Positions 2 through 12,289 of a stretch of DNA of 17,417 nucleotides are shown in pieces (position 1 is the first letter of the stretch; the number at the start of each line of letters is the position of its first letter). The notes beneath the pieces are model-generated. The model made no database searches, was not told the DNA's origin, and saw only the letters and a list, made by a program, of their open reading frames with translations. Position numbers and translations under genes: made by a program. Source of the DNA: Asticcacaulis sp. (GTDB lineage Bacteria; Pseudomonadota; Alphaproteobacteria; Caulobacterales; Caulobacteraceae); contig NZ_JAIWNX010000280.1 in assembly GCF_020217185.1 (NCBI RefSeq), positions 1 to 17,417 of the forward strand. The letters are read 5' to 3'.

Positions 2-1852
2 GACCGCGCGCCCTCCATCACCTATCTGGATCGCTCCGGCGCGCTGGTAGCTGTGCGCGGTTCGCAGTTTGCGCCGCCGGTCGATATCGACGAATTGCCG
101 GACTATGTGCCCGCGGCCTTTATCGCCATCGAAGACCGCCGCTTCTATCACCATTTTGGCTTTGACCCCATCGGGGTCGGCCGCGCCCTGATCCGCAATG
201 CCACACGCAAGGAAGGTGCCAATCTGGCTGGTGGTTCGACCATCACGCAGCAGTTGGCGCGCAACCTCTTCCTCTCCAACGACCAGAATGTGAAGCGCAA
301 GGTGCAGGAACTGATCCTGTCCGTGTGGCTGGAGATGAAGTTCACCAAGAAGCAGATCCTGGCCCTCTACCTTAACCGCGTGTGGTTCGGCGGCGGGGCG
401 ACCGGCATCGAAGCGGCCGCTCAGCGTTATTTCAACAAACCGGCCAAGGACCTGACCATCGGCGAAGCGGCCATGCTGGCTGGCATGATGAAGGGCCCGT
501 CGCGCTATTCACCGCTGTCGGACAAGGACCGCGCCATTCGCCGCACCGAGATCGTGCTGAACGAAATGGTGGAGGCCAAGGTCATCACGCCGGAACAGCG
601 CGCCGACGTATTCAAGACCGGCATCAAGGTGTCGCGCACGCTCGCCACCGAACACGCGCAATATTACGTCGATTGGCTGCAATCGGAGATCGGTCAGATG
701 ATCGACCTCAGCCAGCTCAAGGACGATATCATCGTTGAAACCACGCTCGACCTGCCGATCCAGACCGACGCTGAACGCGCCGTCAAGGCGATGATGGAGC
801 GCGACGTCAAGAAGAAGGTGGAGCAGGCGGCGCTGGTCTCTATCGACGGCGAAGGCCGCGTGCGCGCCCTTATCGGCGGCGTCTCCTATTCCGACAGCCA
901 GTTCAACCGCGCCATCGACGCCAAGCGTCAGGCGGGTTCGGCCTTCAAACCCTTCGTCTATCTGACGGCCATGGAAAGTGGTCAGTTCCGCCCCGATACG
1001 CCTGTGGTGGATGAGCCCGTCACCATCGACGGCTGGACCCCCGCCAACTACACCAACAAATATCTGGGCGACATCACCCTGACCACGGCGCTGGCGCAGT
1101 CGATCAACACGGTCGCCGCGCGTCTGGCCGATCAGGTGGGGCGCTCCAATGTGGCCGCGACCGCACGCCGTCTGGGCATCACCTCCAAGATCAATACCGA
1201 TCCGGCCATGGCGCTCGGCACCGCCGATGTGACGCCGCTGGAAATGGCGCGCGCCTATGTGCCCTTCTCCAACGGCGGCTATAAGGTCGCGCCCTATGGC
1301 ATCGTGCGTATCCGCACCACCAAAGGCAAGGTCCTGTATCAGCATAGCGCGGCGGACAGCCGGGCCCTGGTGATCAACAACCCGGCGCTCGGCTATATGA
1401 ACCAGATGATGCGCGAAGTGGTGCGCTCAGGTACGGGTTCGGGTGTTCGCCTGTCACAGTTTGATATTGCCGGTAAGACGGGCACGACTTCGGATTACCG
1501 CGATGCGTGGTTCGTCGGCTATACGGGGGGCTTCACCACCGCCGTCTGGGTGGGGCGCGACAACAATTCACAAATGGCCAAGGTGACCGGTGGCGGTACG
1601 CCGGCGGCCATCTGGCGTGAATACATGTCGCGCGCCCTGACGCGTATCAAGGTTTCGACCATTCCCACCGGGACGGGTACGCTCGATACGGGGGCGACCA
1701 CAGCCGTCGATGACTTGCTCGGCACAGCGACCAGCGCCGAGGCCCCGACGGTGACCATCGAACCGGCGCAACCGGCAAAGTCGGAAACCCCGCAAACGCT
1801 CGACGAAGTGTTTGAAGACGCCCAAAAGGACTCCCAGAAGCGTAATCCCTAG
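2..1852 (+). CDS. Class A penicillin-binding protein (bifunctional glycosyltransferase/transpeptidase), 5' partial
   Basis: Polymerises lipid II into glycan strands and cross-links peptide stems in the periplasm. The frame is open to the left edge; the in-frame GTG at 53 is internal, since the upstream codons read DRAPSITYLDRSGALVAV, the usual lead-in to this family's GT51 domain. Numbering from that GTG: glycosyltransferase motif EDRRFYHH with catalytic E27, GGSTITQQLARNLFL at 60-74, a RKVQE motif near 82 and KKQILALYLN near 99-108. The transpeptidase has SAFK (S296, K299), SIN (S350-N352) and KTGT (K475). The N-terminal membrane anchor lies outside the window. The C-terminal ~50 residues are low-complexity, rich in Thr, Ala and Pro. 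The TAG stop is part of the CTAG that opens the palindrome at 1849. Alphaproteobacteria carry several paralogues, so I give no symbol. Family assignment is secure. Confidence 0.95.
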   Translation, partial: DRAPSITYLDRSGALVAVRGSQFAPPVDIDELPDYVPAAFIAIEDRRFYHHFGFDPIGVGRALIRNATRKEGANLAGGSTITQQLARNLFLSNDQNVKRKVQELILSVWLEMKFTKKQILALYLNRVWFGGGATGIEAAAQRYFNKPAKDLTIGEAAMLAGMMKGPSRYSPLSDKDRAIRRTEIVLNEMVEAKVITPEQRADVFKTGIKVSRTLATEHAQYYVDWLQSEIGQMIDLSQLKDDIIVETTLDLPIQTDAERAVKAMMERDVKKKVEQAALVSIDGEGRVRALIGGVSYSDSQFNRAIDAKRQAGSAFKPFVYLTAMESGQFRPDTPVVDEPVTIDGWTPANYTNKYLGDITLTTALAQSINTVAARLADQVGRSNVAATARRLGITSKINTDPAMALGTADVTPLEMARAYVPFSNGGYKVAPYGIVRIRTTKGKVLYQHSAADSRALVINNPALGYMNQMMREVVRSGTGSGVRLSQFDIAGKTGTTSDYRDAWFVGYTGGFTTAVWVGRDNNSQMAKVTGGGTPAAIWREYMSRALTRIKVSTIPTGTGTLDTGATTAVDDLLGTATSAEAPTVTIEPAQPAKSETPQTLDEVFEDAQKDSQKRNP

Positions 1853-1990
1853 ATCATTATGATTTCTGGTAGAAACATAATGATCCAGATTTTTGTTTAG
1901 CCCCTCGCCGGGCGGTGGCTCCGCCACCTTGGCCGCCGCCTCAATGGCGGCTTGAGCGGAATGATTCCATTTGAAATCATTCCGCTCTAA
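1849..1990 (-). repeat. Composite palindromic repeat element, copy 1 (intergenic)
   Basis: Two parts are visible. A hairpin at 1849-1888 has arms CTAGATCATTATG and CATAATGATCCAG (one mismatch). A 108-nt unit at 1883-1990 is, on the minus strand, almost identical to the unit inside mutM at 3547-3654. That unit contains three nested stems: AGCGGAATGATT/AATCATTCCGCT (1955-1986), GCCGCC/GGCGGC (near 1933-1951) and GGTGGC/GCCACC (near 1914-1927). By eye fewer than ten positions differ between the copies, and the two small indels cancel, so both are 108 nt. The stop codon of the upstream penicillin-binding protein gene lies in the first CTAG. Possible roles are a terminator or simply a mobile palindromic repeat. 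Confidence 0.85.
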
Positions 1991-3279: not shown

Positions 3280-4257
3280 ATGCCCGAACTGCCCGAAGTC
3301 GAAACCGTCCGGCGCGGCCTGACGCCTGCGCTGGAGCACGCGCGGCTGAGCGGCCTGCGCCTGCATCGGTCCAATCTGCGCTATGCCTTCCCGGAGCGCT
3401 TTGCCGAGCAACTGGAAGGGGCCGAAATCCTGCGGCTGGAGCGCCGCGCCAAATACCTGCTGTTCCACCTCGACACGCAGGCTGTATGGGTCACCCACCT
3501 TGGCATGACCGGACGATTTCAGGTCACTGACATCGACGGGCAAAGCCTAGAGCGGAATGATTTCTACAGGAATCATTCCGCTCAAGCCGCCATTGAGGCG
3601 GCGGCCAAGGTGGCGCAAGCCACCGCCCGGCGAGGGGCTAAACAAAAGCTGGATGGCAACTATTACCACGCGGTGCGGCCTGATCCCAAACACCTGCACG
3701 TTCAGGTGCTGGCCACCAAAGGCGGCGTGACGCGCCTGATCGACTTCTATGACCCGCGCCGCTTCGGCTTCATGCTGTTATTGCGCCCTGACGAACTTTA
3801 CGCGCAAGGCTGGTACAAGGGGCTGGGCCTCGAACCCCTGTCCGACGCCCTGAACGCCGACGCCTTGCACGCCCTGTTCAGCCCCCGCCGCACACCGCTG
3901 AAAAGCCTGCTGATGGATCAGACGCTGATTTCGGGGTTGGGCAATATCTATGTCTGTGAGGCCCTGTGGCGGGCCGCCCTGTCGCCCGACCTGCCCAGCG
4001 ACAGGCTGAGCCACACCAAGGCGGCTGAGCTGACCCTGGCCGTGCGTGAGGTGCTGGAAGAGGCCGTGGCGGCGGGCGGCTCCTCGATCAGCGATTTCGC
4101 CTCCGCTTCCGGCGAGCTGGGCTATTTTCAGCACCGCTTCCGCGTCTATGATCGCGAGGATGAGCCCTGCCTGCGGCCCGGTTGCGGGGGCACCATTGCC
4201 CGCAAAACCCATTCTGGGCGCTCGACTTTTTATTGTCCGGCGTGCCAGAAAGGTTAA
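3280..4257 (+). CDS. mutM: Formamidopyrimidine-DNA glycosylase (8-oxoG repair) with in-frame palindromic insertion
   Basis: Bifunctional DNA glycosylase/AP lyase that removes 8-oxoguanine and formamidopyrimidines. The start is fixed by MPELPEVE: P2 is the catalytic N-terminal nucleophile and E3 is conserved. Also visible are K58 (RRAKYLL), LGMTGRF at 74-80, YDPRRFGF at 157-164, QTLISGLGNIY near 214-224, and a C-terminal zinc finger C297-x4-C302...C319-x2-C322 with GRSTFYC (R313). At 325 residues it exceeds the usual ~270-290. Residues L90-D125 (36 aa) are encoded by a palindromic repeat (3547-3654), placed in the loop between the GMTG strand and the next β-strand. That loop is variable in length in the family. 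Without the insert it would be 289 residues. All core catalytic and zinc residues remain, so the enzyme is probably functional. It lies upstream of rpsT-dnaA, a common alphaproteobacterial arrangement. Confidence 0.97.
   Translation: MPELPEVETVRRGLTPALEHARLSGLRLHRSNLRYAFPERFAEQLEGAEILRLERRAKYLLFHLDTQAVWVTHLGMTGRFQVTDIDGQSLERNDFYRNHSAQAAIEAAAKVAQATARRGAKQKLDGNYYHAVRPDPKHLHVQVLATKGGVTRLIDFYDPRRFGFMLLLRPDELYAQGWYKGLGLEPLSDALNADALHALFSPRRTPLKSLLMDQTLISGLGNIYVCEALWRAALSPDLPSDRLSHTKAAELTLAVREVLEEAVAAGGSSISDFASASGELGYFQHRFRVYDREDEPCLRPGCGGTIARKTHSGRSTFYCPACQKG
3547..3654 (+). repeat. Palindromic repeat element, copy 2, inserted in frame in mutM
   Basis: 108 nt, exactly 36 codons, starting with CTAGAGCGG and ending with CTGGAT. 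The first stem pairs AGCGGAATGATT with AATCATTCCGCT. It is followed by GCCGCC/GGCGGC around ATTGA and by GGTGGC-GCAA-GCCACC. It matches the minus strand of 1883-1990 almost base for base, but here the extra hairpin that copy 1 carries beyond CTGGAT is absent. The encoded peptide (LERND...KQKLD) is Ala-, Lys- and Arg-rich and contains no stop in the mutM frame. Confidence 0.92.
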
Positions 4258-12166: not shown

Positions 12167-12289
12167 TGGGGCGTGGGGTCCGTGACCCCACAAAACCTGT
12201 GATCAAAGAAAAAGCCTCGCTCAGAAAAGCGAGGCTTTTTCTTTGATAGAAGATTCTGGGGCCGCAGGCCCCAGACCCCGTTACTTAAG
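12158..12289. repeat. Nested inverted duplication spanning a convergent intergenic region
   Basis: The left end reads CTTAAGTAATGGGGCGTGGG onward from 12158. The reverse complement from 12289 reads CTTAAGTAACGGGGTCTGGG onward. About 26 of the first 33 positions agree, both then reach the shared perfect stem at 12202/12247, and each side keeps a small hairpin (GGGGTC/GACCCC on the left, CTGGGGCC-GCA-GGCCCCAG at 12256-12274 on the right). The whole intergenic region is thus one imperfect palindrome of about 132 nt. Confidence 0.7.
12202..12247. terminator. Bidirectional intrinsic terminator
   Basis: ATCAAAGAAAAAGCCTCGCT (12202-12221) and AGCGAGGCTTTTTCTTTGAT (12228-12247) form a perfect 20-bp stem around CAGAAA. 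The AGCCTCGCT/AGCGAGGCT core with flanking A- and T-runs works in both directions. It serves the Nudix gene on the plus strand and argG on the minus strand, which converge here. Confidence 0.92.

Follow-up and report, generated by a model that had tools for sequence, protein, structure and literature searches.

The window, a stretch of 17,417 nt forming contig NZ_JAIWNX010000280.1 of Asticcacaulis sp. (assembly GCF_020217185.1), carries a mutM gene with a piece of a palindromic repeat inserted in its reading frame, and an intergenic copy of the same repeat in the opposite orientation (Table 1). The MutM protein scores 301.8 bits with the enzyme model NF002211, whose cut-off is 212, and has 325 aa against 293 aa in each of its six nearest relatives. 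Its conserved motifs and zinc finger are intact despite the insert, both in an alignment of 20 proteins and in a domain search, which bears out the statement of a first-pass annotation, made from the sequence alone, that catalytic and zinc residues are kept. Comparisons were made within a sample of 25 genomes of the genus Asticcacaulis, labelled G000 onwards, where G000 is the window's own genome and G007 the representative genome of another species, assembled in 3 contigs, one of them of 2.4 Mb. mutM is present in all 25, and the gene of G000 shares 96.7% DNA identity with that of G007 and 93.5% with that of G018.

Table 1. Features of the repeat and of mutM in the window
Feature	Position	Strand	Description	Basis
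Full-length intergenic copy	~1850..1989	-	abuts stop codon of upstream gene (53-1852)	TA at 1850-1851 and 1988-1989
mutM (fpg)	3280..4257	+	325 aa, in-frame insert included	NF002211; Fapy_DNA_glyco, H2TH and zf-FPG domains
TA at 5' edge of insert	3548..3549	+	putative target dinucleotide, CTAG context	TA-flanked copies; empty sites
Inserted repeat piece	3550..3645	+	96 nt = residues 91-122; 3' junction ambiguous to ~3654	alignment to empty sites
5' terminal palindrome	3550..3583	+	GAGCGGAATGATT..AATCATTCCGCTC, GAATC (GANTC site) at loop	fold; GANTC in other copies
Structured core	3583..3647	+	hairpin 1, GCCAAG, covarying hairpin 2, CGCCCGGCG..GAGGG	core comparisons

Within the alignment of 20 MutM proteins, residues 91-122 occur in the window's protein only and are missing from all 19 others. 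The MutM match is unbroken in 23 of the 25 Asticcacaulis genomes and split at the place of the insert only in G000 and G007. A DNA alignment of nine mutM genes includes seven without the insert, those of G018, G006, G004, G015, G013 and the more distant G008 and G024; the gene of G007 has it at the identical base. Since this separate assembly carries it, the insert, as judged from the sequences, predates the split between the window's species and that of G007, and an assembly artefact is unlikely. The insertion, first described as recent, is recent in a relative sense only: it is shared by another species, with 2 of 96 nt different, and to call it very recent would be an overstatement. The comparison also replaces the unit of 108 nt and 36 codons first delimited by an insert of 96 nt and 32 residues, the full repeat being about 136 nt long. 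The 5' edge does sit at the TA of a CTAG, as reported; this CTAG, like the GCTGGAT that follows the insert, is host-like or ambiguous when compared with relatives, and lies outside the 96 nt. The further 3' palindrome of full copies is absent from the mutM copy.

Purifying selection on MutM continued after the insertion. Between G000 and G007, codon changes outside the insert comprise 23 synonymous and 6 amino-acid changes, and those within it 0 and 2, too few to judge; the count presumes that the insertion is shared by descent, so that the differences postdate it. An AlphaFold model of the window's protein matches MutM structures. Its pLDDT is below 50 at residues 87-133, where a low-confidence helix is predicted at 101-115, and in 6tc6, the solved MutM with the best sequence score, three residues are left unaligned at the place of the insert. 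From these three observations the insert is likely to be a flexible loop between strands. The surface loop of the first-pass annotation is only weakly favoured by the same low confidence and doubtful helix.

The two copies of the window are indeed nearly identical in opposite orientation, as first noticed: 3548-3654 and 1883-1989 are 80% complementary when compared without gaps and 94% identical with gaps. The repeat unit folds at -58.6 kcal/mol (z -7.0; none of 200 shuffles as good), as consecutive hairpins and not as the three nested stems initially proposed. A full copy begins sharply with GAGCGG and ends as sharply with GATC, between TA dinucleotides, and the consensus measures 136 nt and includes a 3' palindrome. 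The repeat being longer than 108 nt, with this further palindrome, the intergenic copy extends over the whole interval given in Table 1. Of 131 full-length copies, 74 are flanked by TA at both ends, often as YTAG..TAG; of 132 examined for GANTC, 90 have it in the 5' arm and 3 in the 3' arm. The consensus has one open frame out of six; in a first set of 94 full copies this frame was open in 27, and 53 had no open frame whatever. The 3' palindrome is often missing, and many such copies end at consensus positions 83-123. In two loci (L248, L261) a different palindrome (GAGCGAAATGAC..) follows the core, which suggests an exchange of end modules.

The description of a palindromic, mobile-looking repeat is upheld by its many copies and by empty sites in relatives. 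G000 holds at least 40 strong places in a DNA search in which the best 40 of 99 candidates were scored. Translated searches, in which one copy may give two matches, returned 63 in G000, 65 in G007, 83 in G018, 34 in G004 and 26 in G006, and 13 of the 25 Asticcacaulis genomes carry the repeat. Outside Asticcacaulis, 365 genomes from 21 genera of the same family gave no match to the full element at E 1e-6 (best 2 candidates per genome), and the pattern of its 5' arm, with up to two mismatches, occurred in none of these 21 genera among 388 genomes. A search of public proteins with the element peptide had two hits, the window's protein itself and a doubtful hypothetical protein of 178 aa; a viral collection gave no exact match. 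No account of such a repeat in Asticcacaulis appeared in the literature searched, which consisted of titles and abstract openings with few subscription papers. Contigs C17, C203 and C144 of G000 begin or end within repeat copies, as is expected of assembly breaks.

The survey of copies comprised 217 entries, about 214 of them distinct (L149, L150 and L162, labelled Gx, are second fetches of places in G013 and G001), and covered 12 of 83 matches in G018, 15 of 34 in G004 and 3 of 25 in G008; mutM of G000 is represented by a palindrome half (L175). A gene finder based on codon usage, which had learnt from 12 stretches of window genes, places 209 entries between genes, 5 across the end of a gene and 3 within genes. 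Open frames spanning the copies at L032, L139, L166, L234, L255, L264, L241 and L209 were not counted, codon usage calling no genes there. Both neighbours were resolved for 190 intergenic copies, which lie between convergent genes in 84 cases, tandem genes in 79 and divergent genes in 27; this count leaves aside 23 of the 217 entries, located close to locus ends, and one further entry was unresolved.

Comparison of 52 copies of G000 with G007 gave an orthologous copy for 22 by at least one flank and for 19 by both, which implies turnover between close species. The intergenic copy of the window has a precise empty site in G007 and is present in G018, whose contig starts within the copy. The mutM sequence groups G000 with G007, yet this copy pairs G000 with G018, a pattern that might reflect loss, exchange or a polymorphism of long standing. 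The same copy uses the TA of the upstream stop codon (1850-1852), which reads TAG here and TAA in the empty site of G007, so that a stop is kept. A separate palindrome, GTTAACGG..CCGTTAAC, lies nearby at 2020-2069, with matching stretches in loci of G018, G007, G006 and G004.

A second in-frame insertion was found in G006, where a complete element of 46 codons lies within a protein of 802 aa, in the same frame as in mutM; both inserts are thus read in the single frame that is open in the consensus. The element is missing from homologues in G018, G000, G007 and G004, whose matches cover residues 1-118/119 and 166-802; since the two matching pieces touch in G018, the insert amounts to 46 codons. 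At the DNA level the flanking bases differ between the filled and empty versions. The protein has no Pfam match at E 0.001, and its comparison with public proteins gave nothing at E 1, itself included. Because this search missed its own protein, perhaps through 90% clustering or another start, inserts may hide in such collections. Nearly all of the copies examined are outside genes.

Part of the element extends well beyond the genus. Its middle was found in at least 10 other genomes at 80-91% identity, among 385 genomes taken across the class with the best 2 candidates per genome, and the 64-nt core, with its covarying hairpin, occurs in other alphaproteobacterial families. The core is flanked by other palindromes at L406, L409, L410 and L411 and by none that is obvious at L407 and L408; L412 resembles coding DNA. 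Clusters of two to four cores at L406, L407 and L408 belong to a single genus (G648, G422, G550). A covariance model built on 26 cores reached 105 of the 385 genomes at E 0.001 (best 13 candidates per genome, with rough E-values), some of its weakest matches being coding DNA. Among 29 new loci (L414-L442), 20 were inspected (L414-L430, L432, L434 and L435); 18 of these 20 share the order GCCAAG, variable hairpin, CGCCCGGCG, GAGGG, most of the distant ones carrying a short insertion ahead of GAGGG. L432 and L435, which resemble coding DNA, were set aside.

Hairpin 2 of the core covaries, as assessed on three alignments. The first (A2) contains 26 cores, namely 24 of 50 and the two window copies, picked by hand with copies having a broken hairpin 2 among those omitted; over three helices it has 23 double-changed cells, a number reached by none of 500 shuffles. 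The second (A4) contains all 50 cores (12 from L406-L411 plus 38 Asticcacaulis cores, chosen for dissimilarity out of 168) and the two window copies. In A4, 89.9% of the cells pair, double changes number 26 (a count that none of 500 shuffles attains), three pairs change on both sides (reached by 102 of 500 shuffles), and hairpin 2 is broken in a sub-group of Asticcacaulis copies. In the wider alignment (A3), whose loci were found by means of the model, which favours pairing, 98.3% of the cells pair and 25 of 120 cells are double-changed, against none of 500 shuffles and at most 3 in slid controls; shuffles do not preserve relatedness. Further pair types were not exceptional (71, 193 and 156 of 500 shuffles). 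No Rfam family was matched at its cut-off in the core; Rfam gave only sub-threshold matches, to mir-9256 at 1849-1888 and to a c-di-GMP riboswitch off the core, and a neighbouring tRNA. Applied to 76 of 80 named mutM loci, the core model gave 8 matches, the best of 18 bits, and none was accepted as real.

These observations allow a broader reading, which we hold tentatively and consider somewhat less probable than its opposite, the more so in view of the A4 copies that break hairpin 2. The Asticcacaulis repeat might be the local form of a composite mobile family found throughout the Alphaproteobacteria, in which the 64-nt core (hairpin, GCCAAG, covarying hairpin with a GCGGAnGC tip, CGCCCGGCG..GAGGG) would move or be recognised and the ends would be swapped by lineage; in Asticcacaulis the core can be read as an alanine-rich helical peptide, which might lead to capture by proteins.

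For the mutM insert itself, the preferred account, to which as a whole we assign a probability of about 0.8, is that of a non-autonomous, MITE-like palindromic repeat, TA-flanked and with a consensus of 136 nt, that would have entered mutM before the lineages of the window's species and that of G007 parted. The TA target would have been duplicated on insertion, so that a standard copy adds 138 nt, or 46 codons. Given this gain of 46 codons and a single open frame, survival within genes would be limited to one phase and orientation; it would also require a protein that tolerates the peptide. In mutM, a deletion of 42 nt between one GCTGGAT in the element and another in the host probably trimmed the 138-nt insertion; it would have taken out the 3' palindrome and left exactly 96 nt. 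What remains would be a tolerated flexible peptide.

Several measurements bear on this account. Nine full copies hold AAACAAAAGCTGGAT before the 3' palindrome, and the deletion predicted from them is 42 nt in 6 of the 8 that can be measured and 40 nt in the other 2. Against the account, the same copies, as insertions, range from 133 to 138 nt: only L245 has 138 nt, four have 137, one has 136 and one is not measurable; the mutM copy has a loop longer by one base, which brings its added length to 138. Also against it, the pre-insertion sequence required is CTAGCGCTGGAT, and G018 has CTTGCGCTTGAT, two bases different. Duplication of TA, when compared with empty sites, is clean in only one case (the intergenic copy, against G007) and imperfect in two, to which the G006 site with its differing flanks is added, and both ends carry TA in just 74 of the 131 full-length copies. 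A transposase of the IS630 type (DDE_3) was not found in G000 and was present in 2 of 8 genomes searched, and no autonomous parent with the same ends was recognised among the fetched loci.

The most serious competitor, with about one chance in three, holds that mutM took up a short form of about 96 nt directly, through incomplete transposition or from a short subfamily, and that no deletion followed. The many copies that stop at consensus 83-123 and have no 3' palindrome speak for it. However, the mutM copy passes the common short end (GAGGGGCT, position 92) and continues into AAACAAAAGCTGGAT, which long copies also contain, and the arithmetic of the deletion fits exactly. It is also conceivable, if unlikely, that the repeat persists because its nucleic-acid structure has a function, for instance as a terminator, an mRNA end or a site bound by proteins, and is not selfish DNA; its presence in mutM would then be accidental. 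The covariation of the core hairpin and the preponderance of convergent over divergent neighbours (84 against 27 of 190) agree with such a role, which is harder to reconcile with the turnover of copies (22 of 52 shared), with the lack of any match in 12 of the 25 genomes and with the broken hairpin 2 of some copies. Slightly less probable again is single-strand movement of the REP or IS200/IS605 type, in which the repeat would be placed after YTAG and no target would be duplicated: T or C mostly precedes TA and G mostly follows it (TTAG or CTAG), and the ends form hairpins, yet the two sides may share TA alone (TTAG with TAAA, in 7 of 131 copies). A misjoin of the repeat into mutM was rejected as very improbable, largely on account of the separate G007 copy: the window's own genome is in 320 pieces, some starting or ending in element copies, but the position is identical in the three-contig assembly and both flanks match one gene in frame. 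That residues 91-122 are ancestral to MutM and gave rise to the dispersed repeats has hardly any probability left, as nothing more than the similarity of the copies favours it and empty sites in 19 of 19 aligned relatives and 23 of 25 genomes, of a genus in which 13 of 25 carry the repeat somewhere, lead to its rejection.

In-frame palindromic inserts are already known from Rickettsia and enterobacteria, and the Asticcacaulis case is a further variant. According to the available text of two papers (PMC10969869, PMC2229807), the insertion of Rickettsia palindromic elements (RPE) in frame into protein genes is established, and these elements are hairpin-rich repeats of 100-150 bp with an open frame, present in protein genes of several species. 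The Asticcacaulis repeat resembles them in structure and in its in-frame entry into protein genes, seen in mutM of two species and in the 802-aa protein of G006; it differs in that 3 of 217 entries are in genes, against nearly half of the RPEs in the portion of PMC10969869 consulted, a comparison of behaviour only. The enterobacterial repeats RU-1 to RU-3 are likewise described, in the accessible part of PMC2759123, as small, mobile, MITE-like repeats with open frames that occur within annotated genes; the host differs. The first-pass view that such behaviour would be notable in a free-living host was therefore overstated.

In design, going by description, the nearest alphaproteobacterial repeats are the CcrM-associated intergenic repeats CIR1-4 of Caulobacter and other Alphaproteobacteria. 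In the available text of PMC2229807 these measure about 110 bp; a linker connects their two inverted-repeat arms, the termini are TA, and GANTC, the methylation site of CcrM, lies at an arm loop. The Asticcacaulis repeat shares this layout, with the TA and 5'-arm GANTC frequencies given above. The same text describes CIRs as having no genic copies and stops in all six frames, unlike the Asticcacaulis repeat, which enters genes and has one open frame in its consensus. REP sequences and BIMEs, as presented in the part of PMC3733652 available, are also palindromes present at scattered places and bordered by a tetranucleotide; the Asticcacaulis repeat is longer and composite, and the DDE_3 search found no associated transposase.

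A free-living alphaproteobacterium thus joins the hosts whose palindromic repeats become protein. The case is documented by empty sites and by two insertions that arose separately, and it gives a view of how a widespread DNA-repair enzyme was selected once the insert was in place. The multi-copy structured core, spread over parts of the class and matching no Rfam family at the cut-off, makes it possible to test if these repeats act as functional RNA, serve an enzyme as sites or are selfish DNA. Elsewhere in the window, an inverted repeat of 34 nt with a 6-nt loop lies between two genes at 12188-12261 and is terminator-like.
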